This document shows, one piece after another, positions 8,585-51,174 of a stretch of 64,000 nt of DNA. The translations under genes and the position numbers were made by a program. Source of the DNA: Pseudoalteromonas tunicata (GTDB taxonomy: Bacteria > Pseudomonadota > Gammaproteobacteria > Enterobacterales > Alteromonadaceae); contig NZ_CP011032.1 of assembly GCF_002310815.1 (NCBI RefSeq), forward strand, positions 2,210,001 through 2,274,000, read 5' to 3'. How positions within the stretch are numbered: position 1 is the stretch's first letter; each line of letters opens with the position of its first letter. The notes beneath the pieces are model-generated. The model worked only from the letters and a program-made list of their open reading frames with translations. It ran no database searches and was not told the DNA's origin.

Positions 8585-8810
8585 AGATTACATAATTACT
8601 CGTTTTAACTTTATTTTTTCTTAAACAGCAAACGATAACTGAGTTCCTATTTTGATTCAATTGTTTAGCGGGTTTGTTATGATGTTTAAAGCTATTTCCA
8701 TCGCCAAGTATACTGAGGCGTTGCGCTACACTGAGAACTAAAATCTTGTGAATTTTTAGGGTAATAATCACCATATGCAAGATACAAAACCTGACGCTAC
8801 TCTTTTCTTT
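8585..8810 (-). mobile_element. Remnant of the attC-targeting IS (left end)
   Basis: Shares the left-end block of the complete IS at 47.8 kb (ATTACTCG, then ACGATAACTGAGTTCC and TTTGATTCAA). The terminal bases are eroded. Beyond the end it shares roughly 130 further bases with the remnant at 41.2 kb (GATGTTTAAAGCTATTTCC, GTGAATTT, TAGGGTAAT). It carries no transposase sequence. Confidence 0.7.
8632..8660 (-). promoter_or_regulatory. Conserved outward promoter-like block in the IS end
   Basis: On the minus strand TTGAAT and TATCGT lie 17 bases apart, pointing at the tautomerase gene. The same block with the same spacing is kept at all five IS ends in the window. Confidence 0.35.
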
Positions 8811-8901
8811 TTCAATTCGATGCTCAGAGATGCTGTTATGGGGGAAGCGACAAAAGCTTAAAATTAGCAAGTGACGCCAGAGTCTCTGTTATATTGATTA
8901 T

Positions 8902-9246
8902 CTATCGCTCTTTTTCGGCTATTATTTTATTTAGTATATCTTTAAGGTTTTCAATATCATCGGTAATTAATTTACGGCCTGTATTAATTAACGAAATACC
9001 AATTTCCAGCCAAATTCGTAGCAACATTATACCAAGAAACAGCGCAGCAATATTTAGGATACTACTAGGTAGCATTATTTCAGTGGATCCGAATGTTATT
9101 GGTTCAATTACTTTTTCAGTACCTACAATATAATCGTGTATTGGATTATTGGTGAAGTCATTAATGTATTCCGTTAAATTGAATACCAACATCAGCAAGA
9201 TGATAACACCAAGGGCGACTAGGAATGCTCCGACATTTTTTCTCAT
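8902..9246 (-). CDS. Small membrane protein of a gene cassette, function unknown
   Basis: About 115 residues. Two hydrophobic helices are predicted by eye: residues 5-25 (VGAFLVALGVIILLMLVFNL) and about 60-80 (SILNIAALFLGIMLLRIWLEI). A charged C-terminal tail (NLKDILNKIIAEKER) follows. I prefer the ATG before RKNVGAFL (GGA 7 bases upstream) to a GTG eight codons earlier. Its 5' end abuts a MITE, and it reads in the same direction as the neighbouring cassette genes. This fits a mobile cassette gene. Not recognised otherwise. Confidence 0.6.
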   Translation of the reverse strand: MRKNVGAFLVALGVIILLMLVFNLTEYINDFTNNPIHDYIVGTEKVIEPITFGSTEIMLPSSILNIAALFLGIMLLRIWLEIGISLINTGRKLITDDIENLKDILNKIIAEKER

Positions 9247-9286
9247 ATTATCCAAATTTAATACCACCACACTATATCAACATAAC

Positions 9287-9431
9287 AAGACTGAAGGATT
9301 ACACCAACAGCCAAATTTAACTAAAAATCAAAATTCCTTAAATCAAGCCAAAGAGTTTTTAAAGCATTAGATAATGCATTTGGAACCCATAAAACAAGTT
9401 TTTTAATTAAAAAGAGTAATTCTACATCCTC
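9287..9431. mobile_element. MITE, attC-targeting family, copy 1 (145 bp)
   Basis: Right end GAGTAATTCTACATCCTC matches the IS inverted repeat; the left end is eroded (AAGACTGAAGGATTA). It is flanked by AAC on both sides (9284-9286 and 9432-9434; GTT on the cassette strand). The interior (CCAACAGCCAAATTTAACTA and TAATGCATTTGGAACCCA) is shared with the copy at 46.3 kb. It has no coding capacity. Confidence 0.85.
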
Positions 9432-9506
9432 AACAGCGCCATAAACGTCGCGAATTTGCGAGTGTCTGACGACTGAAGGGAGCGAATTTAATGGCATTGT
9501 TAGTGT
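9432..9506 (-). other. attC recombination site (VOC cassette)
   Basis: On the minus strand, directly after the VOC stop, the site reads ACTAACAATGCC ... GGCGCTGTT, the paired R''/R' boxes of an attC of about 75 bp with imperfect inner arms. The R' box is interrupted after GTT by the MITE. This shows the VOC gene arrived as an integron cassette. Confidence 0.75.
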
Positions 9507-9508
9507 TC

Positions 9509-9880
9509 TTATACATGCTGATCTATAAGAATAGGATTGCCATCTGGGTCAATAATCGAGAAACTCGATGGACCTTGCTCTGCGGCAACAGAATCTTCAG
9601 CTATTTGTATACCTTTAGACTTGAACTGCTCAAGCAACTGGCGCACATCATCAAACGACTCTAAATTTTCAGCATTTTGATTCCATCCTGGATTGAAGGT
9701 CAGTATATTTTTTTCAAACATACCTTGGAATAAGCCAATGTTTGTGTCCCCGTGCTTCATTATCAAAAAACCATGAGACTCTTCACCGGCAAACACTTCG
9801 AATCCAATTTTTTCGTAGAAGGCTTTCGATTTTTCCAAATCTTTCACAGCCAAACTTATTGAAAAGCAACCTAATTTCAT
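9509..9880 (-). CDS. VOC-superfamily (glyoxalase/bleomycin-resistance-like) protein
   Basis: 123 residues from the ATG preceded by AAGGAGAAG. The open frame upstream of it is only read-through of an IS end. The single glyoxalase fold shows FSISLAVKDLEKSKAFYEKI at the N terminus and SFSIIDPDGNPILIDQH at the C terminus. The acidic and histidine ligand positions of metal-dependent members are only partly visible. Such small VOC proteins act as lyases, dioxygenases or drug-binding proteins, and they are common in integron cassettes. Substrate unknown. An attC follows the stop within 3 bases. Confidence 0.85.
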   Translation of the reverse strand: MKLGCFSISLAVKDLEKSKAFYEKIGFEVFAGEESHGFLIMKHGDTNIGLFQGMFEKNILTFNPGWNQNAENLESFDDVRQLLEQFKSKGIQIAEDSVAAEQGPSSFSIIDPDGNPILIDQHV

Positions 9881-9914
9881 AATCTTCTCCTTATTGTCAT
9901 TCTTGAACACTAAC

Positions 9915-10065
9915 GAGAATGTTGAATTACTCGTTTTTAAAGTTATTTTTATTAGTCCATAAACGATAACTGAGTTGCTATTTTGATTCAATTGTTTAGT
10001 CGGGTTTGAGTGGGTAGTTTAAATAGGCGTTCTATACCGATTTTGTTACGGTTTCCCTGCAATAA
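9915..10065 (-). mobile_element. Remnant of the attC-targeting IS (left end only)
   Basis: Begins GAGAATGTTGAATTACTCG right after AAC (9912-9914) and continues through the conserved left-end block into sequence similar to the 43.2 kb copy. The rest of the element is lost. It lies about 30 bases upstream of the VOC start and marks the former R' box of the preceding cassette. The outward promoter-like pair is at 9963-9991. Confidence 0.75.
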
Positions 10066-10326
10066 TTTTTAGCCTATCAATATTTTTTATGTTTCGTCTT
10101 TTATTTTACATCAGTCGACTTGGCTAAATGATGCGCTGTACATTTTTAAGCGCTTGCGCGTACTAAAGTCGGTCATTTTTACTATCGTGACTGTTAACTT
10201 ATGTTATTGTCGTTTGAAAATAGGTGAATGTTCAACGTACCGCATTGCAAAATATACATTTAAATCGAGACTATGCCGTGTTATAAAAGTTATTGTTTAA
10301 TAAGGAAGTTATGAGGTTTACACGCT

Positions 10327-11427
10327 TTGAAATATTTTAATATCCTAGCCACCGCCGCAATGTGTTTATTATTAGTGGCATGCTCAAGCGAATCTGACAA
10401 AACCGCTTTTAAGCAATATGAATTAGCTAAAAAAAATCGCGATTTACATCAATTGCACACAGCCTTAATCACGTTGAATACTTTAGACCCCGAATCATTT
10501 GAATCAGAGCTCAATACTATCAAGCAATCGGTGGCTTTATTAAAACAACTCAATTCAGATCGTTCTTTTTCAAGTAACTATTTAATCAGCCATCAGGCGA
10601 ACCTATTGTTTAATAGTAAACAAGCAAAACAGGCGATTGTGCAGCATGGCAGCCAGCTCAATGAACTCATAAAAATAAACCAATTGATCACCAGCGCATT
10701 GACAGAACCGGCTCAGCTTACAGTGGCGTTTACCCAGCAACTTCAAGCATTGCCCTTAAATAAATGGCCTTTGGTTGATTTAAACAGTCAACTAAAACAT
10801 ACCATTAACGCTAAAAATGCTCTCGAACAAGCGCTACAACTTGCCAAGCTACATAAGTTAACTCAATACGCCCCTGAAACTGAGGCGCTGTTCGTTACGT
10901 TGAGGTTACAACTTACATTAAAACTTAACCTAATTGATAAGGTTTATATTGTCGCATTTACCAAAAGTGCAGATGAAATACGCGACCACAATCGGTTTTT
11001 AACTGACAAATCAAGCCCTTTGTTAAGCTCTTTTAATCCAGATAATGCATTGAATGCAATGCAACCGTTATTTATAAAAGCACAAGAGCAATATGCACCT
11101 TTTTTATTAGTTACCAATAACTTAATGACGCATCCTGTTTTTACTGACTATCCCAAAATACACCAAGCCTTACTTGATTGGTCGCAACTAGAACGTGATA
11201 TTTTAATGCCTTACGATAATTTTGTGAGCTATAGCCAAAATAGCGAACAACGAGTTGATAAAATTAACACTATCTTGGCGTTATTGAGTCAACAGCATCA
11301 ACAAAGTAGCTTAGAACATGCTCAATTGGCTCTCAATGACATACAAAAACAGCACCCTCAAGCATTCGACTTGATGGAAAAGTTAAAACATGACAGTGTT
11401 TTTGTTTATAGCGCAACATACAATTAG
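10327..11427 (+). CDS. Lipoprotein of unknown function
   Basis: 366 residues. The signal peptide ends in lipobox LVAC with Cys19 as the lipidation site (ATAAMCLLLVACSSES), so the mature protein is membrane-anchored in the envelope. The body is almost wholly helical, rich in Gln/Leu (many KQ, LNQL repeats), with no recognised domain. The start is a TTG with GAGG 11 bases upstream. An ATG at 10311 with an excellent AAGGAAG lies 16 bases earlier but in another frame, so a one-base slip near the start is possible. It is followed after 11 bases by a second secreted protein, and the pair probably forms an operon. Confidence 0.7.
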   Translation: MKYFNILATAAMCLLLVACSSESDKTAFKQYELAKKNRDLHQLHTALITLNTLDPESFESELNTIKQSVALLKQLNSDRSFSSNYLISHQANLLFNSKQAKQAIVQHGSQLNELIKINQLITSALTEPAQLTVAFTQQLQALPLNKWPLVDLNSQLKHTINAKNALEQALQLAKLHKLTQYAPETEALFVTLRLQLTLKLNLIDKVYIVAFTKSADEIRDHNRFLTDKSSPLLSSFNPDNALNAMQPLFIKAQEQYAPFLLVTNNLMTHPVFTDYPKIHQALLDWSQLERDILMPYDNFVSYSQNSEQRVDKINTILALLSQQHQQSSLEHAQLALNDIQKQHPQAFDLMEKLKHDSVFVYSATYN

Positions 11428-11438
11428 GAAATACATTA

Positions 11439-12791
11439 ATGATAAAAACAGGGATTTTGCTAATAACATTGCTACCCCAAATAAGCTTTGCACTTGACTT
11501 TTATCAACGTGAAGAATGGTGTGAATCAATCGATAAAACCAGCCCTTACGCCATCAAAAGTACAAAAGTATTCGATATAATTGCATCTAACCCTCAAAAA
11601 GAAAAAAACGATGCCATTTCTGATTTAAAAAAAGATTTATGGGAGAAAATTGATAAATTAGCTAAAGAAGAAAATATCGACAGTTTTTATTTCAAGAGTA
11701 TCAATCTAGAAAACCCACCAGACAGAAGCGCTCCTAGCCGTTTTGCTGATCGTTTAAAAGCCTCTGTAACACTTTATCCTGCAACACAATGTAATGTGCA
11801 AAGGCGTGTTAGCTGGGATCAAATAAAAGTATCGTCACAAGAGTCATTGCTTGCTTCTGGTACTGTGACAAGAGAGCACGTATTTAACATCAACATCTCA
11901 GCAGAAACAAACAAATCAAACCATGCATCACCTTCATTGGTTGATCCAGTGATCACTGAGTCAACATTCTATGGACTTTCATTAGGGATGACCAAAGAAG
12001 CGGTGCTCGATCATGTGCAAGGATTTGATTTAGAGATCCAAATAAGCCCAATTTCTGTGATTCACATTATTGGCCGTAATCACGCTTTCTATTTTAAAAA
12101 CAACTTATTAGTTGGTTATCAGTATGCATACAATTTATTGCCCATTGTCTTTGCCAATCAACTTGCAATGACACAAACTTGGCCGCAGTTTCAATTTGAT
12201 AATCAAAATATTTTAATCAATGATGATCTTAGTGCCAGTGCAAAAAGTGCCATTAAAAAGTTAACCAACAATAACGCACAAATTGAAACAGTCAAAAATG
12301 CAATAACAGAAGAAATTAAAACTAAATTGATCTCTTTTAGTTTAGGTGAAACCAACACATTTATACCTATGGTCAACAATACACGTTGCGTAGACTTTAA
12401 CGCCCCCCTTGAAGCCCAATTAACATCCTTAAAGCACCATTATCGACTGAAGTTTAATGAGCAAGATAAAAATGTTAGCTATTTAAACGATTGCCAACAG
12501 CTGCTTACTTTTCAAGGACAATATTTAAAAAAGGTTAAGTTGATGCAGCTGACAGAATTAACAAATTATCAACTCAGTCCTTTAAATAAACTGCTCAATC
12601 AACAAGAGGCATGGAAATTTGGTGCAATAAAACAAGGCATGCCTGAAAGCCAGGTCATTGATAAGCTAAAAGTGAGCAACCCATTCATCTTTGAGCAACA
12701 ACTCGAAATAAGTAACGATAAGTGGTACGGCACATTACAATTTGGCGAAAAAGGCGTTGTATCAGGTAAATTAGACTATTTTGGATCTTAG
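11439..12791 (+). CDS. Secreted protein of unknown function
   Basis: 450 residues with a signal peptide (MIKTGILLITLLPQISFA) and a mature N terminus LDFYQREEWCES. Two segments resemble each other: GLSLGMTKEAVLDHVQGF (about residue 179) and GAIKQGMPESQVIDKLKV (about 396). Each has the G(M)(T/P)xxxVxxxL pattern seen in small BamE/SmpA-like modules of envelope proteins. Cysteines are sparse. It follows the lipoprotein gene by 11 bases, so the two products may act together in the periplasm. No enzyme motif was seen. Confidence 0.7.
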   Translation: MIKTGILLITLLPQISFALDFYQREEWCESIDKTSPYAIKSTKVFDIIASNPQKEKNDAISDLKKDLWEKIDKLAKEENIDSFYFKSINLENPPDRSAPSRFADRLKASVTLYPATQCNVQRRVSWDQIKVSSQESLLASGTVTREHVFNINISAETNKSNHASPSLVDPVITESTFYGLSLGMTKEAVLDHVQGFDLEIQISPISVIHIIGRNHAFYFKNNLLVGYQYAYNLLPIVFANQLAMTQTWPQFQFDNQNILINDDLSASAKSAIKKLTNNNAQIETVKNAITEEIKTKLISFSLGETNTFIPMVNNTRCVDFNAPLEAQLTSLKHHYRLKFNEQDKNVSYLNDCQQLLTFQGQYLKKVKLMQLTELTNYQLSPLNKLLNQQEAWKFGAIKQGMPESQVIDKLKVSNPFIFEQQLEISNDKWYGTLQFGEKGVVSGKLDYFGS

Positions 12792-12823
12792 AACAGCGCC
12801 TTTAGCCTTTTAAGCTAATACTG

Positions 12824-12908
12824 AATAAACGCTCGACATCAACCCTAAATATTTTATTTATTTTCAATAACTTGTATAATAAACATTGAAAACGATGTCG
12901 AGTTTATT
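12824..12908 (+). terminator. Long-loop inverted repeat after the secreted-protein pair
   Basis: AATAAACGCTCGACATC pairs with GATGTCGAGTTTATT across about 53 bases (two-base bulge). The loop holds a smaller nested pair (TCAAT/ATTGA). It lies between the plus-strand operon and the minus-strand mipA pseudogene, so it could end transcription from either side. No clear U-tract. Confidence 0.4.
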
Positions 12909-13011
12909 GCTCAGCTACATTACTTAACTTTAAGAACAAATTCGTTACACTCTTTGCACATCAAAAATGGTGGCGCAGCCTCGCATTTTTATCCATAACA
13001 ATCTGAAATTA

Positions 13012-13854
13012 TTACACATATATAAAACCTATCCCCACTTCGGTTTCATAGTTATTGCAAACAATTGGGCTTTTGCGCAACTCACTACTGAAATATTCAA
13101 ATAGTGCTTCACCGTAAATCTGCCAATCTTCATTGATGTTGTGACGGTATGAATAATCGATTCCGAAAGATCGTAAGCCTCCATTTAGATTCGTTGCGGC
13201 TAAGCCTGAAGCAGCAGCTTGCATTACGTTTATACCAAACCCCTTGTTGGCGTACTCGCTGTCATGAAAAACAGCAACCAAATTAACTTCTGAACCACTG
13301 CTATCATTTTGGCTTCCAAAGCAGTAACCCACGCCAAATAATCCTAAATTGCCATCACCTCCCGTCACGACCCGCCCTATTATCCAAGAGCGCCAATCAG
13401 AGCTAAATGCTCGGCGTGCTTGAAGCACAACTTCAAAACCTTCTTCTTGGTTGCCTAGGCCATTTAAATGGCCGTCGTCTGAGTCGCTTTCTTCGCGACC
13501 CTCTTCAAAGCCAAGCAAGGTGTCAATTAACCAAGTTTCATCTAATAGACCACGCAAGCCCAATGCTTCGCCTGCGAAATAAAAAATATTATCATTACTT
13601 CGTCATTGCACAGCCCCTGCAGGCTGGATTTCCAAGCCAAATTCATCTGAGCCTTCGTACGCTGTTTCATATTCAACGCCGAGGCCAAGCCCAAACGCTC
13701 AGCCTTTATTGCCTTTTGTGAAGCCATCAACTGAGGGTCATGGAACTAAAACTGTTTTTGTATCTTGCGCTAAGGCGGTGTTAAAGGGATAGATAAAGGT
13801 GGTAATAGCTCCGGCAATGGCTAGAGGAAAGGCATAAGTTTTGTCATTTTTTAT
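13012..13854 (-). pseudogene. mipA: MipA/OmpV-family outer-membrane protein, degraded
   Basis: The C-terminal two thirds read cleanly as MipA (GLRGLLDETWL, EEGREESDSDDGHLNGLG, VLQARRAFSSDWR, SEVNLVAVFHDSEYANKGFG, YRHNINEDWQIYGEALFE, EVGIGFIYV). Upstream the gene is broken: the expected start codon reads ATA, a TGA follows the signal-peptide region (AFPLAIAGAITTFIYPFNTA, then VLVP-stop), a G is missing in GLGLGVEYETAYEGS, and the Trp after AVQ has become TGA. MipA links MltA and PBP1B-type murein machinery or acts as a small outer-membrane protein. Multiple lesions indicate a true pseudogene rather than a sequencing error. Confidence 0.85.
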
Positions 13855-14009
13855 GTCTTGTATGTGTAACAAAGCGCAATCAAACGCTCATTTTTGTTCA
13901 ATTAGTGTACGCATGCTTTTGAAAAAGTTCATTTTTTGGCAAATTAAAGCTTGGAACTGAAATTTTACACTACAAAAAAACTGCCAATATGTTTGCTGTG
14001 ATATGTCCT

Positions 14010-14080
14010 GTCGGGCTAAAGCTCGACCTACAAAATGCGGCAGAGCTGCGCTCGACTTGGCTAGCAGGCTTGCACCTGCG
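14010..14080. repeat. REP-like palindromic repeat
   Basis: GTCGGGCTAAAGCTCGACC followed by AGAGCTGCGCTCGACTTGG and GCAGGCTTGCACCTGCG: three nested stem-forming units. Related copies lie at 43.80, 58.16 and 58.60 kb. It is placed between two minus-strand genes, where it could also act as the transcription end of the chitin operon. Confidence 0.75.
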
Positions 14081-14174
14081 CCCCTCAATGCAAACTCTGA
14101 AATCAAGTTTCTAAATAAAGAGCACGCGCCACTGCCGCGCTTTAATCTGGGCAAAACAAATGTGGGTTATTTGT

Positions 14175-18920: not shown

Positions 18921-19044
18921 AGCGCACTCTTTTATTATTTTTAATTGTATTGATGCATCATAAATTGATGATATTTATTATTTTTAGTGCAATATCCAGC
19001 ACTCGTTATCCTCTGAGTTCGGGAGGCTCAGAGGCACTCAATTG

Positions 19045-40702: not shown

Positions 40703-40755
40703 ACGCTAACGGCCCAAACCGCCGGAATAAAGGTCGGTTTGGGCCGTTAGTTCGG
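40703..40755 (-). other. attC-like site (DUF1428 cassette)
   Basis: CTAACGGCCCAAACCG and its perfect complement CGGTTTGGGCCGTTAG, 13-base loop, next to the DUF1428 stop. The outer CTAAC/GTTAG boxes fit a short attC, but perfect pairing without extrahelical bases is unusual, so it could instead serve only as a terminator. Confidence 0.55.
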
Positions 40756-40763
40756 TCTAGCAG

Positions 40764-41117
40764 CTAAGACTTAAGGAGTGTAGTAAAACCTCCATAAATT
40801 AGACGCTTACCATCAAAAGGCATTGGATTATTTTCTGGTGACATTCTGGGATCTTCCATCATTGCGCCCCAACCAGAATCTCGAACTTCTTTTGAGGGCC
40901 ATATCACCCAAGAAAATACAATGGTTTCATTCTGCTCTGCTTTGACCGCTTTAGGCAGCGATGTTATTTTTCCTTGAGGAATGTCATCACCCCAATTTTC
41001 TACTATTTCTAACGCACCATATTCTTTGAATACTTCTGCGGATACTTTCGCATGCTCAATATACTTATCTTTGTTTTCGCAAGGTACTGGGGCAACAAAA
41101 CAATCGACATATGACAT
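40764..41117 (-). CDS. DUF1428 (YbaA-like) protein in a gene cassette
   Basis: 117 residues: MSYVDCFVAPVPCENKDKY, then VFKEYGALEIVENWGDD, VKAEQNETIVFSWVIWPSKE, MEDPRMSPENNPMPFDGKRL and IYGGFTTLL. All are conserved blocks of the DUF1428 alpha/beta-barrel family, of unknown biochemical role. The ATG follows AAAGGAAA. It lies between an attC-like site and the end of a deleted IS copy; the IS end may provide its promoter. Confidence 0.9.
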   Translation of the reverse strand: MSYVDCFVAPVPCENKDKYIEHAKVSAEVFKEYGALEIVENWGDDIPQGKITSLPKAVKAEQNETIVFSWVIWPSKEVRDSGWGAMMEDPRMSPENNPMPFDGKRLIYGGFTTLLKS

Positions 41118-41174
41118 GAGTATTTCCTTTTTTGTTGATTAAAACGTAAAGCAAAACTTATTTTCTGACCTAAC

Positions 41175-41995
41175 GAGGCTGTAGAGTTACTCGTTTTAAA
41201 ATTATTTTGATTAGTTTGTAAACCATAACTTAGTTCCTATTTTTATTCAAATATTTAGTCAGGTTTGCTTTGATGTTTAAAGCTATTTCCACCACCGATA
41301 ACACAAAGGCGCTGCGCTTTACCGAGGGCTAAAAGCTTGTGAATTTATAGGGTAATTATCACCATAGCAAAGATAGACCTAACCCTACTCTTTTTTACAT
41401 TGGATTTTAATTTACAGCCATCAATGGCAAATAGGTTGCGGCCAATTAGCCCTTCTTCATCACAAATCATCTGCACTTGGGTAAATAGCGGTTCAATTTG
41501 CTGGTGCATTTTAGCCACGAAAGCAGCTATCGAGGTGTAATGTGGCTGAACATCACCCGCTATTTCTTGCAAAAGAGTCTCATGAACAAAATATTGTTTT
41601 CACACGCCTTAGCAATGCGGCGGCTACTGATCAAACCATGTGCATAACCGAGTAAAATTGTCTTGAGCATGACGGCTGGTGAATACGCCGCTGCACCTGT
41701 TTTATCGTTGTTGTACCATGCATCAAAACCCGTTAAATCGAGTTTATTTTCGACAATATAACAAAGGGCATACTCAAAAGTGCCAGGCAAAATTTGCTCA
41801 GCGAAATTGATAGGAATGAATTTATTTTGACAGGATAAGTCAGGCTTGGCTCCTAACCCAACGAAAGAGCCATAACACGTTACCGTGGGTGAATAATATC
41901 TATTAGATCACAGTCACTCGGTAGGTTCAAGGTTAAAAATCGAGCAAATAAAGAAGTGTAGAATCAGTTCCTAAAACAAGTAATTCTACAGCCTC
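41175..41995 (-). mobile_element. Internally deleted copy of the attC-targeting IS1182-like element
   Basis: 821 bp with both terminal repeats (GAGGCTGTAGAGTTACTCG ... AAGTAATTCTACAGCCTC) and AAC duplicated at each side (41172-41174 and 41996-41998). Only the N-terminal part of the transposase is left (41345-41880), broken by a frameshift near 41570. Most of the 3' two thirds of the gene is gone. An outward promoter-like pair lies at 41222-41250. Confidence 0.88.
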
Positions 41996-42090
41996 AACGC
42001 CTCGTTAAGAGGCAAAAAATAGTTGGTTAAAATAAGCGAGGCACGAGCAAAACCAACTGTTTTTTGTCCTGCTTTAATGCCTTGTATGGA
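41996..42090 (-). other. attC site (hydrolase cassette), R'' box degenerate
   Basis: AACGCCTCGTTAAGAGGC ... GCTTTAATGCCTTGTATGG; it shares nearly the whole arm AGTTGGTTAAAATAAGCGA and CCAACTGTTTTTTGTCCTGC with the attC at 46.4 kb. Here the outer R'' box reads ATACAAGG instead of TAACAAG, so recombination competence may be lost. Confidence 0.8.
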
Positions 42091-42096
42091 AGTTTT

Positions 42097-43119: not shown

Positions 43120-43152
43120 ATGAACTCCATGTCGGTGGTTGAAACTTCTAAC

Positions 43153-43790
43153 GAGCCTGTAGAATTACTCGTTTTTAAAGTTATTTTTATTAGTCAGTAA
43201 ACGATAACTTAGTTCCTATTTTGATTCAATCGTTTAGTCTATTTTGAGATGAGATTTTAAATCGGAGTTTTAGATGGGTTTTCTTGCGGTTTATGTGGGG
43301 TTATGAGGCATTTTTAAGGATAAAAAGGGTTTCCCCTGCTTAATTCAACCTGCTTTGCAGCTTTTCTATATTATGCACCAAGCAATACAGTTGCCCATTC
43401 ACTTTCTTTTGACCGCGCAAGGTCAATTTATTCATGCCTTTATTGACGGTGATATTCCGCCTTTTATTTAAAGGAAAGCAGGTTCGATACAGCCTAGTCG
43501 TTTGCCATTCCTTGAATAAAAAGGTGTCGTCGTCCCATTGGGCTGTCTATTTTTACTTCATTTTGTCGATGTAACTGACTTTTTTGCGTGATCCATCATT
43601 TTTAAATTGCATTTTCCTGCCTGTTTTTATTGGTGGTTTTCGCATACATTGCTGTTGCAATGGGCAGATTTTACAGTCTTTTAAGTAACCGCAGAATCGT
43701 GTGTATTTTTGATTGTGGCTTTTTACATTGATACCGCTTCGCCACATCTCATTGCCTGCGGGGCAGCGGCAAAAAATAATTATGGGTGCC
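43153..43790 (-). mobile_element. Truncated copy of the attC-targeting IS
   Basis: Left end GAGCCTGTAGAATTACTCG after AAC (43150-43152), conserved end block (promoter-like pair 43201-43229) and a decayed C-terminal transposase segment (CRCPAGNEMWRSGINVKSH; CKICPLQQQCMRKPPIK). The copy breaks off near 43785 in the middle of the transposase, next to a REP-like unit, and its other end is missing. Confidence 0.82.
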
Positions 43791-43798
43791 AAATATTT

Positions 43799-43832
43799 CC
43801 GTAGGTGCAAGCCTGCTTGCGAAGCTCACCCG
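43799..43832. repeat. REP-like unit at the IS breakpoint
   Basis: CGTAGGTGCAAGCCTGCTTG followed by CGAAGCTC is the same unit as at 58.16 and 58.60 kb, in reverse orientation. It stands exactly where the truncated IS ends. Confidence 0.65.
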
Positions 43833-44079
43833 CTGTTTTGTCGTGACTTATCACTACACGTCTTGGCTTTTGGCGTCATTGTGAGATACAAACGTTTTCA
43901 CCACTGAGAACCCCGAGGCGCTGCGCTACAACGAGGTTAAACGATTGTTTTACGAGCACTAAATTTTAAAAGTCTTTTTATTTCAAGAAGATATTTATGG
44001 GTGATGAGATGGACACTCCCAAAACGGCGTCTATGCGCCAAACTGGAAGTGAAACTCAGTTATTCTAGGAGCATCCATC

Positions 44080-45099
44080 ATGAAGTGTAGAACTATTGGC
44101 ATTGATTTAGCAAAATCTGTTTTCCAAGCGTGTGGAGTGAATCAACATCTAAAACCTGTTTTTAATCAACGATTAGCTAGGCGTGATTTTTATGCTTTTA
44201 TGGCAGAGCAACCGCCCACGCAAGTGGTGATGGAAGCCTGTTATTCATCCCATTATTGGGGTCGAGAATTAACCCAATTAGGGCATACTGTCTGCCTAAT
44301 CCCCGCTCAACATGTTACGCCCTTTGTTCGAGGGAATAAAAATGACCGCAATGATGCTCTAGCCATTGTTGAAGCAAGTCAACGACCTAACATTCGATTT
44401 GTGCCGATAAAAAGTGAAGCGCAACAAGAAGTCATGGCACTACATCGTATTCGTGAACGGTTAATCAAAAACAAAACCGCATTAACAAACCAAGCACATG
44501 GTTTATTGAGTGACTTTGGGATTATTTTCAGTCAAGGAGAACGTTGTTTTTCTGTCATGGCCCATATCGTCGCGGCAAGCTCACACGTGAGCGAAAATAT
44601 AAAATCTCTGGTTGCCATGTTGCATGAAGAGTTTTTAGGGCTTAAAGCCAAGTTAAAAGTAATCGAAGCCAAATTAAAACAAAACTTAACCCAGTTTCCA
44701 CAAGCAGAAATACTGCTTAGTGTGCCAGGAGTTGGTTACATCATCGCTTCCGCGTTAATTGCCTGCATTGATAAAGGGCAAGCATTTAAAAGCGCAAAAG
44801 ATTTTGCTGTTTGGTTGGGAATAACACCGCGCCAATATGCATCAGGGTCACATAGTTATATGGGCAAAATATCAAAGCGAGGCCATCGTTATTTACGCAA
44901 GCAACTCATTCATGGCGCCAGAGCCGTCCTTAATCGCTATAAAAATGAAAACGATGCGCTCAAGGTGTGGGGTGAAGCGGTCGCACATCGACGTGGTTTT
45001 AATAAAGCGGTGGTTGCCATTGCCCATAAACTTGCACGGATTGTCTGGCACTTGTTGCAAAAAGATGTGATGTACCAACCTCAACATATAAAGGCCTAA
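44080..45099 (+). CDS. IS1111-group (IS110 family) transposase/recombinase
   Basis: 339 residues. N-terminal RuvC-like DEDD domain (TIGIDLAKSVFQACG, VVMEACYSSHYWGRE, NKNDRNDALAIVEA) and C-terminal Transposase_20 domain (LLSVPGVGYIIASALIA, then KISKRGHRYLRKQLIHGARA carrying the catalytic Ser region). Such recombinases insert DNA without ordinary terminal repeats, guided by an RNA from the element end. Intact frame, AGGAG upstream of the ATG. Some IS1111 elements are known to choose attC sites. Confidence 0.93.
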   Translation: MKCRTIGIDLAKSVFQACGVNQHLKPVFNQRLARRDFYAFMAEQPPTQVVMEACYSSHYWGRELTQLGHTVCLIPAQHVTPFVRGNKNDRNDALAIVEASQRPNIRFVPIKSEAQQEVMALHRIRERLIKNKTALTNQAHGLLSDFGIIFSQGERCFSVMAHIVAASSHVSENIKSLVAMLHEEFLGLKAKLKVIEAKLKQNLTQFPQAEILLSVPGVGYIIASALIACIDKGQAFKSAKDFAVWLGITPRQYASGSHSYMGKISKRGHRYLRKQLIHGARAVLNRYKNENDALKVWGEAVAHRRGFNKAVVAIAHKLARIVWHLLQKDVMYQPQHIKA

Positions 45100-45102
45100 C
45101 AT

Positions 45103-45275
45103 GAAGATTTCACACCATAACGTTATTTATAAATGGTTGCTTATTCAACCATTACCTAAATAGTAACGGGTTGTTCACACCATTGTTAGCTAACACATGT
45201 TGATGAGTAAACGGTTTTCCCACTTGAAAATAACCTGGTTTTGACAAGGGTTTAAAATCCGTGTGGGTGTTAAGG
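45103..45275 (+). ncRNA. Candidate bridge RNA in the right end of the IS1111-type element
   Basis: The longer non-coding right end, about 170 bases, has stem-forming parts (AATGGTTGC/GCTTATTCAACCATT region; TGTTAGCTAACA). In IS110-family elements the longer end is transcribed into a bridge RNA with loops matching target and donor; in the IS1111 group this is the right end. Structure and loops were not computed. Confidence 0.4.
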
Positions 45276-45519
45276 TATTTCAAGTACGGAATTCATCAGA
45301 GGCCGGCGGGAGTCAACTCCCGCCACTCTTTTCCTCAGAATCAGAGGAAAGAACAGAGCCTGTATATATGTCAGTGCTGATATTTTTAATATCTATTTAT
45401 CAGAAAACCACATGAACATATGTTAACGAACAAAAAGAATAAACGATTTATTTTGTATTTTTTACAAGATAAAAACTGCTCATGCTTGCAAAGTCGGTCG
45501 TGTCCATATATGTCTAGTA

Positions 45520-45562
45520 TTTTTCAACGTTTTTTAGTCCTGATTAATTTGCTTGTTAGTAG
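45520..45562 (-). other. Truncated attC (one arm)
   Basis: On the minus strand CTAACAAGCAAATTAATCAG followed by GACTAAAAAAC, identical to the first arm of the attC at 45.8 kb. The second arm and R' box are absent, lost towards the IS1111-type insertion. Confidence 0.65.
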
Positions 45563-45575
45563 TATTTTACGCCGC

Positions 45576-45764
45576 TCAAGTTTCTTTTTGGGATTTACGT
45601 CTTTTAATAAGACCTAAAGATAAAAACACGATAGAAGAAATTAAGAACACGGTTGAGCCGATAAAATCCTGCTCGATTACGTTATAAGCCAAGCCTATAA
45701 CCATAATAAAAGATGCACCGATATAAGATTTAAATTGAGATGACGAGTTTTTATTCATTAACAC
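45576..45764 (-). CDS. Small two-helix membrane protein of a gene cassette
   Basis: 62 residues: polar start (MLMNKNSSSQFKSY), helix 1 IGASFIMVIGLAYNVI, helix 2 STVFLISSIVFLSLGLI, basic tail KRRKSQKET. Two residues after the start a second Met offers an alternative. It is placed between two attC sites sharing the same arm, typical of a small cassette. Function unknown. Confidence 0.6.
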   Translation of the reverse strand: MLMNKNSSSQFKSYIGASFIMVIGLAYNVIEQDFIGSTVFLISSIVFLSLGLIKRRKSQKET

Positions 45765-45797
45765 TACCCTTTGATTGAAGCTGTAACTTTAATACTA

Positions 45798-45892
45798 CTA
45801 ACACCCAAATAATGGGCTAAAAATAGTGGGCTAAAATGGAGCGAAGCGAACAGCCCGCTGTTTTTAGTCCTGATTAATTTGCTTGTTATGTT
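45798..45892 (-). other. attC site
   Basis: CTAACACCC ... GCTTGTTATG, about 95 bp with imperfect arms (GGGCTAAAAATAGTGGGC; CAGCCCGCTGTTTTTAGTCC). It follows the gene at 45.9-46.3 kb. Confidence 0.82.
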
Positions 45893-45907
45893 TTTGATAA
45901 CTCTACT

Positions 45908-46255
45908 TTAACCAGAAAAAGTTAATGATGAATTAAAACAAAATACTGGCTCTAAATCTATGTATGGTTCAGGAGCCCAACAAGTAGTCCTAAATTTTTC
46001 ATAAACGTCTCTAAAAGGAGATACTACTAATTCTCTTTCATCCATCATGATTTTAGAAAAATCAGCAGATTTAATAACTATATATATGCATTCAAAGTCA
46101 TCGCCTTTTTCATAAAACACAGAATCCCAAAAGTAACCTTTTTGCTCCATTTCGCTTTTAGGAAACTCAATATTTTCACGCATATAAGATATCAAAGTAT
46201 CTAAATGGTTTCGAGAATTAGGATTCAATTTGATTTTTAGTAGCTTAGATTGCAC
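45908..46255 (-). CDS. Soluble cassette protein of unknown function
   Basis: 115 residues, no signal or membrane helix. Segments KLNPNSRNHLDTLISYMREN, GYFWDSVFYEKGDDFECIYI and YEKFRTTCWAPEPYIDLEPV. The pattern (short N-terminal RNP-like strand, helix, FYE/YIVIKSADF strands) suggests an antibiotic-biosynthesis-monooxygenase-like ferredoxin fold, as in DUF6176-type proteins, but this is not certain. It is bounded by an attC downstream and a MITE upstream. Confidence 0.62.
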   Translation of the reverse strand: MQSKLLKIKLNPNSRNHLDTLISYMRENIEFPKSEMEQKGYFWDSVFYEKGDDFECIYIVIKSADFSKIMMDERELVVSPFRDVYEKFRTTCWAPEPYIDLEPVFCFNSSLTFSG

Positions 46256-46278
46256 TCAAACCTCTAGAAAAACATAAC

Positions 46279-46424
46279 GAGACTGTAGAATAACTCCAAC
46301 AGCCAAATTTAACTAAAAAACGAGCTCCTGTAATCAACCCTAAGCGCATTTAAGGCATTAGCTAATGCATTTGGAACCCAGAAAACAGCCTATTTTTCTT
46401 AAAAAAGAGTAATTCTACAGCCTC
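46279..46424. mobile_element. MITE, attC-targeting family, copy 2 (146 bp)
   Basis: Ends GAGACTGTAGAATAACTCC and GAGTAATTCTACAGCCTC, flanked by AAC (46276-46278 and 46425-46427). Excising it with one AAC restores a clean attC R' box (GGCGTTATG on the cassette strand). The interior is shared with the 9.3 kb copy. Confidence 0.9.
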
Positions 46425-46509
46425 AACGCCTCATTAAGAGGCAATAAAATAGTTGGTTAAAATAAGCGACGAAGGAACAAAAACCAACTGTTTTTTGTCC
46501 TGCTTTAAC
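46425..46509 (-). other. attC site (alpha/beta hydrolase cassette)
   Basis: AACGCCTCATTAAGAGGC ... GACTTGTTAGC, arms AGTTGGTTAAAATAAGCGA and CCAACTGTTTTTTGTCCTGC. It is almost the same attC as at 42.0 kb. The R' side is occupied by the MITE. Confidence 0.88.
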
Positions 46510-46515
46510 GACTTG

Positions 46516-47454
46516 TTAGCTAGACTTTAACCACTTAACAAGTATGTTTAATACTTCTGTATCTATAGGCTCCTTTGCCAATAATGGGTAATTTGAAAAA
46601 CAAGGCTCTTCATTTTCACAGCGTAATATATGTGTAAGGTTAGGCACCATATGACTTTCCACTGCTACCGGAGCTATGAGTTTTATCTGTTCAACATCTT
46701 GAGGTTTACACTGAATATCTTTACTGCCTGAAATTGCAAGCACAGGAGATGATATTTTATTAAATATATGCGAAGGTACTATAGTCAACATTTCTCTAAA
46801 CCATTTAGCTTCAACCTTTTCAGAGCGTTCTACAAAATAATCTGATGATGTACGCTTTATCTTTTTAATAAACTTACTTGTATCAGAAACTGGCTCATCA
46901 AATAACTTAAACATAGTTTTTTTATAAAGGCGTTTAAGTCCTTTATTGGTTTCAATTTCGACAATTAACTCATTGTGTAACGTTTCAGCTTGAGACATTA
47001 AAATATCTTCCAATCGCTCAATGAATGGACAAAGTAAGATCATGCCTGCAATATTGTCACGTTTAATATTAATTTGTGGGGCAATAATACAACCTTCACT
47101 GTGACCTAATAAATATATTTCTTGTAGGTTAAAAAATTCAATGTTTTGAAGTTCATCAAACCAAGATAATGCATCATCTACTAGATCGAAATGACCTGTT
47201 TTATAAAAATCTCCAGTGCTTTGTCCACAACCTCTTTTATCATATCGAATGCTGGCAATACCATTATCAGCTAGATAATGAGCAATATTATTAAATATAT
47301 TAAGGTCTAAGCCTTGTTGATTTTCATCTCTATCGAGTTCACCACTGCCATGAATCATTAATACGACTGGAAATTTTCCTTGTTCTTGCGGAAGGCAAAT
47401 TGTCCCTCTTAATGTCACTTGTTCTTTCTTTATTGAATACTCAACTTCTACCAT
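46516..47454 (-). CDS. Alpha/beta hydrolase in a gene cassette
   Basis: 312 residues, no signal peptide. Oxyanion motif VLMIHGSGELDRDENQ, nucleophile elbow LLGHSEGCIIAPQ, acid region LAISGSKDIQC and His in NLTHILRCEN: a complete Ser-Asp-His triad of the serine aminopeptidase/acyl-hydrolase type (similar to the YqiA/FrsA-like dienelactone group). Cytoplasmic esterase or peptidase; substrate unknown. A good ribosome binding site (ACAGGAAG) precedes the ATG. An attC follows the stop by 6 bases. Confidence 0.87.
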   Translation of the reverse strand: MVEVEYSIKKEQVTLRGTICLPQEQGKFPVVLMIHGSGELDRDENQQGLDLNIFNNIAHYLADNGIASIRYDKRGCGQSTGDFYKTGHFDLVDDALSWFDELQNIEFFNLQEIYLLGHSEGCIIAPQINIKRDNIAGMILLCPFIERLEDILMSQAETLHNELIVEIETNKGLKRLYKKTMFKLFDEPVSDTSKFIKKIKRTSSDYFVERSEKVEAKWFREMLTIVPSHIFNKISSPVLAISGSKDIQCKPQDVEQIKLIAPVAVESHMVPNLTHILRCENEEPCFSNYPLLAKEPIDTEVLNILVKWLKSS

Positions 47455-47468
47455 AAACTTCCTGTCTA

Positions 47469-47558
47469 GCTAACGCCCAAATTTAGCGCGGAAAGCCGCG
47501 CAGCGGGTTGACGTCGCAGCCAGCGCTTTTTGCTGGCGATAAAATTTGTTTGTTATGT
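47469..47558 (-). other. attC site
   Basis: TAACGCCCAAATTT ... AAATTTGTTTGTTATG, with inner GCGCGGAAAGCCGCGC and CCAGCGCTTTTTGCTGG stems; about 90 bp. It follows the small membrane-protein gene to its right. Confidence 0.88.
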
Positions 47559-47810
47559 GTTTTTACTTTTGTCTCTGCGACCTAGCCAACTCCACGTTAA
47601 TTTGGCCGTAATCACTGACAAAATAAAACTGAATGGCACAATTACTAATAAACCCACCAATCCGAGCCCATAATCTTCAGAAAGCGCCTCTTTATTTGGC
47701 GCACCTACTTTTTCCATATGCAGCTCTATGTACCATTCACTAATCAAATGCTCAAAGCAAATGAAGCTAAATACCAGTACAGCCAAACTTATAAATATTC
47801 TTAGAATCAT
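47553..47810 (-). CDS. Small two-helix membrane protein of a gene cassette
   Basis: 85 residues from MILRIFISLAVLVFSFICFE; the longer open frame upstream runs into the IS end and is not used. Helix 1 residues 3-22, helix 2 LGLVGLLVIVPFSFILSVI at about 52-70, tail LGRRDKSKNT. The stop overlaps the attC R'' box, and the start lies 13 bases from the IS border. Function unknown. Confidence 0.6.
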   Translation of the reverse strand: MILRIFISLAVLVFSFICFEHLISEWYIELHMEKVGAPNKEALSEDYGLGLVGLLVIVPFSFILSVITAKLTWSWLGRRDKSKNT

Positions 47811-47870
47811 AGAAACACATAACGAGCCTGTAGATTTACTCGTTTTAAATTTGTTTTTATTAATCAACGA

Positions 47871-47899
47871 ACCATAACTGAGTTCCTATTTTGATTCAA
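47871..47899 (-). promoter_or_regulatory. Outward promoter-like block in the IS left end
   Basis: Minus strand TTGAAT, 17 bases, TATGGT, directed out of the element towards the next cassette gene. The same elements at the same spacing occur at 8632, 9963, 41222 and 43201, although the copies differ elsewhere. Confidence 0.38.
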
Positions 47900-48010
47900 T
47901 CGTTTCGTCAGTTTCGAGTGGATATTTTAAATCTATGTTTTAGGTGGTTTTTTTTGCGGTATCTGTGAGGTTTTAGAGGTGTTTTTAAGGGTAAAAAGGG
48001 GTTCCCCTGC

Positions 48011-49576
48011 TTAATGCACTCTGTTTTGCAGCTTTTCTATATTATGAACCAAGCAATACAGTTGCCACTGGGTATTCACTTTCGTTTGACCCCGTAAGGT
48101 CAGTTTATTCATGCCTTTATTGACGGTGATATTACCGAATACAGGCTCAATAGAACCAAGCCTTTTACTGTACTGCCGTCGCCCCATTGGGCTGTCTATT
48201 TTCACTTTCATTTTGTCGATGTAACTGAGCTTTTTGCATGACTCGTCATTTTTAAACTGTACTTGCCGCCCTGTTTTTATCGGTGGCTTTCGCATACATT
48301 GCTGTTGCAGCGGGCAGATTTTACAGTCTTTTAAGTAACCACAGAATCGTGTGTATTGTTGGTTATAGCTTTTTACATTGATACCACTTCGCCACATCTC
48401 ATTGCCTGCGGGGCTGCGGCAAGTTTGTGTTACTTCATCATAGTGGAAGTCATCCGAGGTAAATAACCGTGGCTTGCCTTTACTGCGTTTTAATCGGCGC
48501 TTTTCTTGCTCTGTTTCGTAGGTTTCGCTCTCTTTAAACAGCGGATTGCGTTTTCTAAATTGGTTATCGGCTATGTAACTATCAAAGCCACTTTGCGCCA
48601 TAAATTCGAGGTTCGCTTCGCTATTAAAGCCACTGTCTGCGGTGAATTTGATGGCCTGTTCCTTTGACGTTCGGTTTGCGTTGAGTTTAGCCAGTTGTTG
48701 TTTTAATTGATTAACGGCTGGCTGCAAAGTTTGTTGCTCGCCCACCGAACCCCACGCTTGTGCTTGCAGGATAATCTGATGTTTATCATCATTAATCGCA
48801 ATGCCGTTGTAACCTTGGATGGTGCCTTTGGATGTCGTCATCTTTGCGCTGTCTGGGTCTGTGATATTACTTTTAACCGGCTTACCTTGACTGCCTGTTT
48901 TTTCTTGATGAGTGGCGAGAAATTCAGTGATTTTAGCGGCACTTTTATCGAGCTTTTCTTTTTGCTTTAAGTCTTGTGTGACTAGTTCTTCACTTAATCC
49001 ATCTTGGGCTTGATGGCGCTCAATAATGCGTTTGCTTGCCCGTTCTAGTTTTGCTTTTTTACGGCCGAGTTCATCGAACGTACCGCTCCATTCTTTGCTC
49101 GCATTTGACTTTAACTTACACCCATCAATGGCAAACATATTACGGCCTATTAAGCCTTCTTCGTCGCATATCATCAGCACTTGCGTAAATAATGGTTCAA
49201 TCTGCTCGTGCATTTTAGCCACAAAACCCGCTATTGATGTGTAATGCGGCTGAACATCACCCGACACACTCATAAATAAAATATTGTTTTCACACGCCTT
49301 AGCAATACGCCGACTGCTAATTAAACCATGTGCATAACCCAGCAGAATAATTTTGAGCATCACCGCAGGTGAATACGCCGCTGCACCTGTTTTATCGTTG
49401 TTATACCATGCATCAAACCCCGTTAAATCGAGTTTATTTTCAACAATATAACAAAGGGCATACTCAAAAGTGCCAGGCAGAATTTGCTCAGCGAAATTGA
49501 TTGGAATGAATTTATTTTGGCAGGATAAGTCAGGCTTGACTCGTAACCCAACGAAAGAGCCATAACACGTTACCAT
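48011..49576 (-). CDS. IS1182-family DDE transposase
   Basis: 521 residues. N-terminal DUF772-type domain (YSPAVMLKIILLGYAHGLIS, SRRIAKACENNILFM), the first catalytic Asp in MFAIDGCKLKSNASKEW, a central lysine-rich helical insert (ERASKRIIERHQ), the second Asp in KFTADSGFNSEANLEF, a Cys cluster (CGYLKDCKICPLQQQC) and the C-terminal Glu region (RRQYSKRLGSIEPVFGNI). It catalyses cut-and-paste or copy-type transposition of its own element and probably of the MITEs with matching ends. The frame is intact and the only full-length copy in the window. Confidence 0.92.
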   Translation of the reverse strand: MVTCYGSFVGLRVKPDLSCQNKFIPINFAEQILPGTFEYALCYIVENKLDLTGFDAWYNNDKTGAAAYSPAVMLKIILLGYAHGLISSRRIAKACENNILFMSVSGDVQPHYTSIAGFVAKMHEQIEPLFTQVLMICDEEGLIGRNMFAIDGCKLKSNASKEWSGTFDELGRKKAKLERASKRIIERHQAQDGLSEELVTQDLKQKEKLDKSAAKITEFLATHQEKTGSQGKPVKSNITDPDSAKMTTSKGTIQGYNGIAINDDKHQIILQAQAWGSVGEQQTLQPAVNQLKQQLAKLNANRTSKEQAIKFTADSGFNSEANLEFMAQSGFDSYIADNQFRKRNPLFKESETYETEQEKRRLKRSKGKPRLFTSDDFHYDEVTQTCRSPAGNEMWRSGINVKSYNQQYTRFCGYLKDCKICPLQQQCMRKPPIKTGRQVQFKNDESCKKLSYIDKMKVKIDSPMGRRQYSKRLGSIEPVFGNITVNKGMNKLTLRGQTKVNTQWQLYCLVHNIEKLQNRVH

Positions 49577-49685
49577 GGGTGAATAATATCTATTAGATCA
49601 CAGTCACTCGATGGGTTCAAGGTTAAAAATCGAGCAAATAAAGAAGTATAGAATCCGTTCCTTAAATGAGTAATTCTACAGCCTC

Positions 49686-49742
49686 AACGCCCCAAGCAGC
49701 GGCGCGTTTACGCGTCCGCCTGATTTTGATTGTTAGCTTTTG
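49686..49742 (-). other. attC site (DUF4386 cassette)
   Basis: AACGCCCCAAGCAGCGG ... GATTGTTAGC, about 57 bp. It overlaps the last codons of the DUF4386 gene. The R' side carries the complete IS. Confidence 0.82.
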
Positions 49743-50379
49743 CTTGACCGATGAAACTGGCCCCCACAAAAACAAACCAAATTATTTGTGAGACACCGAA
49801 TAGCTCTGTAAAAATGTCGGCAGGATAGATAGTTGCGATGCCAGCAGCACCAACAAATAAGCCAATATAATTGAGCCACTTAGAAAATATTTTACTATAT
49901 AAATTGCATAGACTGATTAAAAGTACCCAGATACCACCAACTAGTTCATTACCGCCCCCAAGGCTTTCAGTGAGTAAAGTTACAATATGCCAAGTCTCTG
50001 ATGCCTTCTCGACGTTTGTTCTCGCCAAGTTAACTACAGCGTCTAAGCCAATAACCGATATAAACCCACTAGCTATAACCAAACCAACCCACACTACGCC
50101 AAATAAAGTAGCGAGCTTACTTAAATATTGTGTCTTGAGGGTGGAATGCTTTTCATACAGCCCCAGAACCAAAACCGACAATACAACACCAAACAAGGCA
50201 TAGATGGAAAAATAAACGATTCCTATTGATATATGATTGTCTTCTAGGTACACAATTTGATCAGCAACTTCTGCTGAATATGGATAAGCCCAGAAAGCAC
50301 CGAAGTAAATAAATGCGCCAATATAGATTAACGCTAAGAAGATGGCGCATAGGCCAGTAAAATAATTGATTTTTTTCAA
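49708..50379 (-). CDS. DUF4386-like integral membrane protein in a gene cassette
   Basis: 223 residues with six hydrophobic helices (YFTGLCAIFLALIYIGAFIY; ISIGIVYFSIYALFGVVLSV; LATLFGVVWVGLVIASGFIS; ELVGGIWVLLISLCNLYS; WLNYIGLFVGAAGIATIYP; IIWFVFVGASFIG). The LATLFGVVWVGLVIASG and GLFVGAAGIATIYP pattern fits the DUF4386 family. Function unknown. The C-terminal residues lie inside the attC, which is frequent in cassettes. Confidence 0.8.
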   Translation of the reverse strand: MKKINYFTGLCAIFLALIYIGAFIYFGAFWAYPYSAEVADQIVYLEDNHISIGIVYFSIYALFGVVLSVLVLGLYEKHSTLKTQYLSKLATLFGVVWVGLVIASGFISVIGLDAVVNLARTNVEKASETWHIVTLLTESLGGGNELVGGIWVLLISLCNLYSKIFSKWLNYIGLFVGAAGIATIYPADIFTELFGVSQIIWFVFVGASFIGQAKANNQNQADA

Positions 50380-50403
50380 CTGTAAATCCTTTATGTGAGA
50401 AAG

Positions 50404-50505
50404 CTAACGCCCGGCTATGGCGCCGGAGTGCAGTTGGCCTTTTTTGTGGTACCTACCACAAAAAAGGCCAACGGAATGGAGGTCGCACATGAGCCGTTTG
50501 TTAGG
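50404..50505 (-). other. attC site
   Basis: CTAACGCCCGGC ... GCCGTTTGTTAGG, about 100 bp, with a perfect inner stem TTGGCCTTTTTTGTGG / CCACAAAAAAGGCCAA. Confidence 0.9.
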
Positions 50506-51004
50506 TTCTGAACCAATACTTCTTTCTGTTTTTTCGATACTCATATATTGACGCAAAAACTAAAAATAGACCGACCCAAGGAAACAATATAGCTCCTCGT
50601 TTTTCGCTTGCAACGGATTCGTCGTATGATCGAACAACGTTGCCATTTGCCACTATTTCGTAAACTGGATTGTAGCTATATTCGTGAGCTATTGGCTTCT
50701 GAGTTTCCTTGAGATTTGCTAGCACGGTTACATTTACTCCGCTTGCACTAATCGCTTCATATATTTCTTTCGCGAGAGTCGATCCCAAACCGTTGTGTAC
50801 AAAAGTACCTTTACCCACAATTTTAAAGCGAACGTCCCTGCTTTTTTTGCTTGCACGATTTACCCACTCAACTTCTCCAGCAATCTCCACCAGCTCGGAT
50901 TTTGGAGGTATCGAATCTAGAAACTTATCACCCCAAAAATGAGCTGCCAAGAAGAAGATACCCATTGCTAGCCCTATAACCGGAATAATTTTTCCTTTGA
51001 ACAT
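50501..51004 (-). CDS. Membrane-anchored cassette protein of unknown function
   Basis: 167 residues. N-terminal helix IIPVIGLAMGIFFLAAHFWG, a polar domain of about 110 residues (VEIAGEVEWVNRASKKSRDV, KFKIVGKGTFVHNG-like strands), and a C-terminal helix AILFPWVGLFLVFASIYEY followed by RKNRKKYWFRT. This is the arrangement of DUF3592-type proteins (two helices around a beta-rich periplasmic domain). Its start is 20 bases from a MITE end. Confidence 0.65.
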   Translation of the reverse strand: MFKGKIIPVIGLAMGIFFLAAHFWGDKFLDSIPPKSELVEIAGEVEWVNRASKKSRDVRFKIVGKGTFVHNGLGSTLAKEIYEAISASGVNVTVLANLKETQKPIAHEYSYNPVYEIVANGNVVRSYDESVASEKRGAILFPWVGLFLVFASIYEYRKNRKKYWFRT

Positions 51005-51027
51005 ACTCAGCCCAATGAATACCTAAC

Positions 51028-51174
51028 GAGGCTGTAGAATTTCTATTTTTATAAATTTGGCCATTTTTTTGACCTCCTGTATCGCTTTCTAAGCGACAAT
51101 CTCGTACTAAGCAATGCATTTGAGACCCCTTAAAGCACCTAAAAACTTGACCAAATGAGTAATTCTACAGCCTC
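51028..51174. mobile_element. MITE, attC-targeting family, copy 3 (147 bp)
   Basis: Ends GAGGCTGTAGAATTTCTAT and GAGTAATTCTACAGCCTC with AAC on both sides (51025-51027, 51175-51177). The interior diverges from the other two copies but keeps AATGCATTTGAGACCCC. Excision restores GGCGTTAGG on the cassette strand. Confidence 0.9.

Follow-up and report, generated by a model that had tools for sequence, protein, structure and literature searches.

The cassette array of a chromosomal integron in Pseudoalteromonas tunicata is interrupted, again and again at one exact point of its attC sites, by an IS1182-like insertion sequence (IS) and by miniature inverted-repeat transposable elements (MITEs) of its kind; part of this integron lies in the window analysed here, a stretch of 64,000 nucleotides, in which the array stands to the left of the integrase and on the minus strand. 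An initial annotation, made from the window alone, had proposed such insertion for an IS1182-like DDE element with its MITEs, and the proposal was borne out for a clade that occurs in many genera. The exact point of insertion, the GTT triplets on both sides, a fixed polarity, a bias towards a subset of attCs and the spread through the clade can be read from the sequences directly; the explanation considered probable is that a clade of IS1182-like IS with MITEs possesses its own DDE transposase specialised for attC, which would insert with a 3-bp duplication of GTT and with fixed polarity.

The genome of P. tunicata comprises 4,959,443 bases in two contigs (coordinates C1 and C2). The analysis covered 662,715 of these bases, in stretches surrounding the element ends and in adjoining regions. 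The 18-base end of the elements has 102 matches in the genome, compared to 1 for the reversed pattern, and pairing of the ends at up to 4 mismatches yielded 39 two-ended elements, 29 of them MITEs (146-148 bp) and 10 longer (638-2022 bp). On the cassette strand 37 of the 39 are flanked by GTT on either side, the other two by GTT/GTG and GAT/GTT. Polarity is identical throughout (39/39), that is, the same element end always points towards the attC, a regularity absent from the initial annotation and added by the follow-up. A covariance model of attC (R1), built from 26 element-free attCs of this genome, has a match ending no more than 2 bases from the insertion point in 36 of the 39 elements (33 at 20 bits or above), where 0.02 would be expected by chance. 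Two of the remaining three are the second MITEs of tandem pairs and the third has a partial match just upstream (C2:933479-933554). Tandem pairs occur at C2:194523 and C2:351113, and one more in L165, the locus of a relative, which suggests that an occupied site may be hit again. Of 78 attC matches of at least 20 bits in the genome, 33 have a two-ended copy; the elements may thus well affect cassette movement and expression there.

Within the window the 18-base end is matched 11 times when as many as 3 mismatches are allowed, against 0.05 expected (elements in Table 1). Of five two-ended insertions said to share it, four do; the fifth, the MITE at 9287-9431, is 80.8% alike to the 146-bp MITE but differs from the 18-mer at 5 positions of its left end (counted by eye) and, owing to this degeneration, stands outside the 39 elements paired by script. 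All five have AAC on both sides of the plus strand, corresponding to GTT on the cassette strand (at 9287-9431 judged by eye). Taking out the element and one GTT leaves GGCGTT followed by A(T/G)G in four of them and not, as had been claimed, always, the older MITE having GCTGTT instead of GCGTT. Two of the one-ended remnants have an AAC junction (those at 9915 and 43153), whereas the one at 8.6 kb has lost its junction. An occupied attC keeps everything up to the GTT, with the bases thereafter changed from A(T/G) to GAGG, and with an element in place the R1 match at 46422-46519 still reaches 64.7 bits. R1 matches lie on the upstream side of the window elements, and none has its end at their 3′ junction. 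The attC type which holds the full-length IS of the window (49.68 kb) is element-free in four other Pseudoalteromonas genomes, 83-90% alike. Right-end remnants, truncated at various points, are numerous in the P. tunicata genome.

The transposase of this IS matches NCBIfam NF033551 (IS1182) over most of the model with 257.6 bits (E 2.3e-76), short of the curated cut-off of 270, as well as the Pfam families DDE_Tnp_1_6 (92.3 bits, cut-off 25.1) and DUF772 (55.4 bits, cut-off 23.1). Residues D142, D305 and E468 (numbering of L111) are invariant across 15 aligned relatives and would constitute the DDE triad. Scanning one genome per species revealed 383 relatives, the best 80 of which, with 43-94% identity, were studied (L numbers denote their loci). 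Their hosts are mainly marine Gammaproteobacteria; others belong to Thermodesulfobacteriota, and some contigs come from metagenome bins (which can be mixed) that bear the labels Myxococcota and Bacteroidota. On plasmids, 4 of 1430 matching records show at least 60% identity; no relatives were found in viral contigs or among solved structures. Assigning the ends by the best inverted repeat misplaced some boundaries, and this approach was replaced. Both ends could be located in 64 of the 80 relatives, with GTT/GTT in 57, AAC/AAC in 2, TTT/TTT in 1 (L171) and other combinations in 4 (GTT/GCT, TGA/GTT and two whose right ends are probably spurious). Among the ends listed, 136 of 150 in other Pseudoalteromonas genomes and 102 of 117 in distant relatives (thirty genomes) adjoin GTT or AAC; of the pairs listed, 13 of 14 and 28 of 30, respectively, have GTT/GTT, the others being GAT/GTT, TTT/TTT and GTC/GTT. 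Lone right ends far exceed left ends in the other Pseudoalteromonas genomes (112 AAC versus 24 GTT among the 150 ends listed).

A second attC model (R2) was made mostly from distant hosts and includes the attC L172:1519-1614, itself beside a lone left end. At the 70 testable insertion points of the relatives (that is, without L163, which has no clear left end, L169 and L186 with their short flanks, and loci lacking a left end), an attC match was present in 42 with R1 and in 53 with R1 or R2 (0.11 expected): in 32 of 36 where the transposase has at least 60% identity and in 21 of 34 below that. In P. tunicata and in the relatives alike, most copies are therefore placed at attC matches, and the scenario under which the initial annotation would have failed, copies lying mostly outside attC, did not come about.

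A tree of 79 transposases places the 68 attC-labelled rows together with L201 at a support of 100/100. L201 had been labelled canonical at first but turned out to be attC-type, and the attC group without it has a support of only 60/75; attC was the default label for every relative, several rows having one end seen only. The canonical IS1182 rows have homologous ends, adjoining short palindromes: CTAG stands on both sides in L199, L202 and L204, GGCC twice in L198, and L192 has TTAAT twice, in the loop of a hairpin. Terminal inverted repeats of the form GAGNCTGT or CAGGCTGT are common to attC-type elements and canonical rows.

Not all attCs are occupied alike. The motif T(T/G)A exactly seven bases before the GTT is present in 30 of 35 distinct occupied sites of P. 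tunicata compared to 12 of 40 empty ones (10 of 38 if two with a lone left end are left aside; the 26 seeds of R1 belong to these empty sites). Among the relatives it is found in 35 of 36 occupied sites at 60% identity or more, and in 36 of 67 empty sites in loci of any identity. Pooled for the close clade, the motif marks 65 of 71 occupied and 46 of 105 empty sites (nominal p 2e-11), a p value which is only indicative because sites share descent and because the empty sites were found by R1 and the occupied ones by their element. Since integron integrase (IntI) must have used all these attCs alike, the bias points to the transposase rather than IntI as the chooser. Occupied and empty attCs do not differ in length (p 0.64) and differ weakly in the local stem (p 0.04). 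The attC is an imperfect hairpin, and the probability that its GTT is paired exceeds that of controls in P. tunicata (p 3e-5) and in distant relatives (p 0.004), but not clearly in nearer ones (p 0.07). A hand-made hairpin score gave p below 1e-8 against control GTTs for P. tunicata and nearer relatives and p 0.02 for distant ones, but separated them weakly, many true attCs scoring like controls, and was dropped in favour of the covariance models.

IntI crosses over within the GTT of the R′ box, as G^TT. The element would be joined just 3′ of this GTT, the very triplet of IntI cleavage, by its own transposase; the GTT would be repeated as a 3-bp target duplication, the same element end facing the attC. 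After insertion the attC probably remains usable: being intact up to the GTT it should still recombine, and the element would form the leading part of the following cassette and could move with it. A broader scenario, whose chances are put a little under even, is that a large DDE clade with hosts in several phyla reads attC as a polar, probably folded site and inserts at the integrase crossover, leaving attC usable. The IS and MITEs would then act as 5′ leaders of cassettes, would owe their spread both to transposition and to recombination by the integron, and would change how cassettes are expressed.

Counted in favour of an inserting transposase are the TTT/TTT pair of L171, where the triplet is changed on both sides as expected of a duplication, and the lack of an integrase above cut-off in 11 of 33 hosts searched, several of which have fragments; Oceanospirillum linum (18 ends) and Marinospirillum insulare (10 ends), both draft genomes, gave Xer-like integrase scores only. 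A number of observations pull the other way. Polarity is fixed even where the two 18-bp ends are identical (e.g., L116, L125, L177, L188), for which a recombinase with a directional core is a simpler explanation. A triplet changed on both sides was seen in one pair only, and one-sided changes are commoner (GTT/GTG, GAT/GTT twice, GTC/GTT, GTT/GCT); in O. linum, a copy of 263 bp is flanked by CTT/GTT. In L138 and L143, the two AAC/AAC cases, the transposase gene is reversed relative to the attC. At 17 of the 70 sites in relatives neither attC model has a match, and below 60% identity the T(T/G)A motif falls to 13 of 32 occupied sites. Two full-length copies in O. linum (L232, L234) sit at sites which, by eye, are unlike cassette attCs, so specificity for attC is strong but not absolute; one of these sites is a good hairpin whose arms are AACGCT/AGCGTT and which ends in GTT, hinting that a fold, beyond the attC sequence alone, is read, while the other folds weakly. 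An exact empty allele, flanked by both cassettes, was absent from the sequences fetched, and one query of 1342 bases against 108 genomes of the genus found none either. Finally, the expectation that joined flanks form attC hairpins held as far as the attC models match them, but plain folding gave mixed results: of four window sites with an element two beat shuffled sequences (z -2.7 each) and two did not (-0.9, -0.1).

Some of these difficulties would vanish if the transposase merely excised a circle with GTT-joined ends, which IntI, crossing over at G^TT as it normally does, then inserted at attC; flanking GTTs and fixed polarity would follow automatically. The insertion point is exactly the IntI crossover, polarity holds in 39 of 39 elements, identical ends included, and one-sided triplet changes as well as the CTT/GTT copy fit a G supplied by the circle and a TT supplied by the target. 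This course of events is nevertheless judged unlikely: every one of these attCs has been recombined by IntI, but elements of the close clade sit mostly in a subset distinguished by L′-R′ spacing; TTT/TTT in L171 does not fit; hosts with many copies, such as O. linum and M. insulare, lack an integrase above cut-off (though drafts may have lost it); and canonical IS1182 rows have homologous ends with short repeats where no integron is involved. Less probable again is an IS200/IS605-like insertion of a single strand 3′ of a fixed GTT, without target duplication and with the second GTT belonging to the right end of the element. It would account for the fixed polarity and the fixed triplet 5′ of the left end, and attC is described as active in the form of a folded single strand (cited in PMC7923331); the transposase, however, matches DDE and not HUH families, the terminal inverted repeats are long, and TTT/TTT in L171 again disagrees. 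That a few insertions were merely multiplied by duplication and cassette shuffling is very improbable. Some neighbours are indeed duplicated (the same attC is found at C1:1384478, C1:1385260 and C2:916888), but with copies removed 35 distinct occupied sites in P. tunicata and 68 in relatives remain, which contradicts this idea; they differ in attC and cassette across several hosts, and full IS, deleted IS and two types of MITE obey one rule.

Table 1. Mobile elements, attC sites and integrase in the window
Feature	Position	Strand	Remarks
Full-length IS, 1862 bp	47824..49685	-	GTT both sides, adjoins attC
DDE transposase of IS	48011..49576	-	521 aa as called; intact relatives 510-512 aa
Internally deleted IS, 821 bp	41175..41995	-	GTT both sides
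MITE, 146 bp type	46279..46424	-	GTT both sides
MITE, 147 bp type	51028..51174	-	GTT both sides
Older MITE, degenerate left end	9287..9431	-	AAC on both plus-strand sides, box GCTGTT
One-ended IS remnant	43153..43772	-	right end with AAC junction
One-ended IS remnant	9915..10024	-	right end with AAC junction
Remnant of IS right part, junction lost	8596..8666	-	matches IS positions 1781-1850 only
attC holding deleted IS	41993..42087	-	46.1 bits
attC holding MITE	46422..46519	-	64.7 bits
attC holding full IS	49683..49736	-	16.5 bits, weak alone (E 1.6)
attC holding MITE	51172..51240	-	18.4 bits, weak alone (E 0.6)
Empty attC	45798..45889	-	65.0 bits
Empty attC	47470..47556	-	51.3 bits
Empty attC	50404..50504	-	51.1 bits
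Empty attC	52958..53052	-	40.6 bits
Empty attC	56222..56319	-	65.5 bits
Group II intron	53960-55320	-	starts directly after GTTA of attC 55316-55389 (cassette strand); reverse transcriptase interrupted
Integron integrase IntI, intact	56842..57813	+	NCBIfam TIGR02249, 466 bits, cut-off 265

Besides the intact integrase of the window, the P. tunicata genome has three additional integron integrases (C1:2394213-2395150, C1:2669660-2670605 and C2:911911-912848), all of them split in two, and the attI-like tract upstream of the window integrase also precedes two or more of these. An IS110-family transposase (NF033542, 322 bits) is encoded at 44080-45099, in the array and within the region of a broken IS remnant. 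A second copy of the group II intron (C2:924513 onward) follows a MITE at C2:924366 in the order attC-GTT-MITE-GTTA-GTGCG; one attC border is thus common to two kinds of mobile element. The sole Rfam match in the window (55023-55280) is outside the IS and MITEs, and no excess of promoters was seen in the 45.7-51.4 kb region (12 versus 16.2 expected). The MITE at 51028-51174 and its copies carry AGGAGG and a short reading frame, in most MAKFIKIEILQ(P/S)R (the pattern is present in 22 of 29 MITE copies), which often ends inside the restored GTTAG; by eye, its conservation does not exceed that of the remainder of the MITE. The frame could couple to translation of the next cassette.

Of the known systems, the IS1182 family itself (e.g., IS1272) shares a related transposase (NF033551) and homologous ends, GAGNCTGT / CAGGCTGT. 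Some of its members, including IS1272, aim at palindromes or stem-loops (PMC5678879); IS1272 replaces the target repeat without duplication and uses varied palindromes, whereas the attC elements use one asymmetric point, with GTT on both sides and fixed polarity. The statement of the initial annotation that IS1111-type elements and group IIC introns are the known attC specialists agrees with PMC11187229 and PMC7923331. The former describes the IS1111-attC group (ISKpn4, ISPst6) as insertion sequences aimed at one attC point; these differ in having a DEDD transposase with guide RNA and subterminal repeats, in contrast to the DDE transposase, terminal inverted repeats and MITEs found here. The DEDD match in the window belongs to the separate gene at 44080-45099, the IS transposase matching DDE. 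Tetu and Holmes (2008) and Post and Hall (2009) are reportedly the works cited on IS1111-attC elements. Group IIC-attC introns insert at attC, including attC clusters without integrase, and the R′ box is given as GTTRRRY (both according to PMC7923331); they are retroelements, typically opposite to the cassettes, and have neither transposase nor inverted repeats. The ISAjo2 group of the IS1202 family consists of DDE IS beside pdif/dif sites, in one orientation and with a 5 bp duplication (PMC10132070), but belongs to another transposase family and inserts 5 bp from XerC/XerD sites, not at the attC crossover; instead of the TnsB-like transposase and 5′-TGT ends of the IS1202 type, the elements here have the ends GAGNCTGT and match IS1182/IS5-like families.

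In the open-access literature, the scope of a search that stopped short of ISfinder and most subscription journals, no description of IS1182-like attC targeting was found. DDE elements beside tyrosine-recombinase sites, attC specialists and stem-loop targeting by IS1182 are already known; their combination and its spread did not turn up in that search. With a DDE family alongside the IS1111 type and the group IIC introns, unrelated enzymes would have evolved attC targeting on no fewer than three occasions. Two questions become testable: whether a DDE transposase can act on a target in folded or cruciform form, and what determines the polarity when the two ends are almost identical. Integron gene cassettes, too, have GTT at both borders and a fixed orientation, but the IS and MITEs lack a 3′ attC of their own and have 18-bp terminal inverted repeats and a transposase; the GTT junction would help annotation tools to tell these elements from cassettes.

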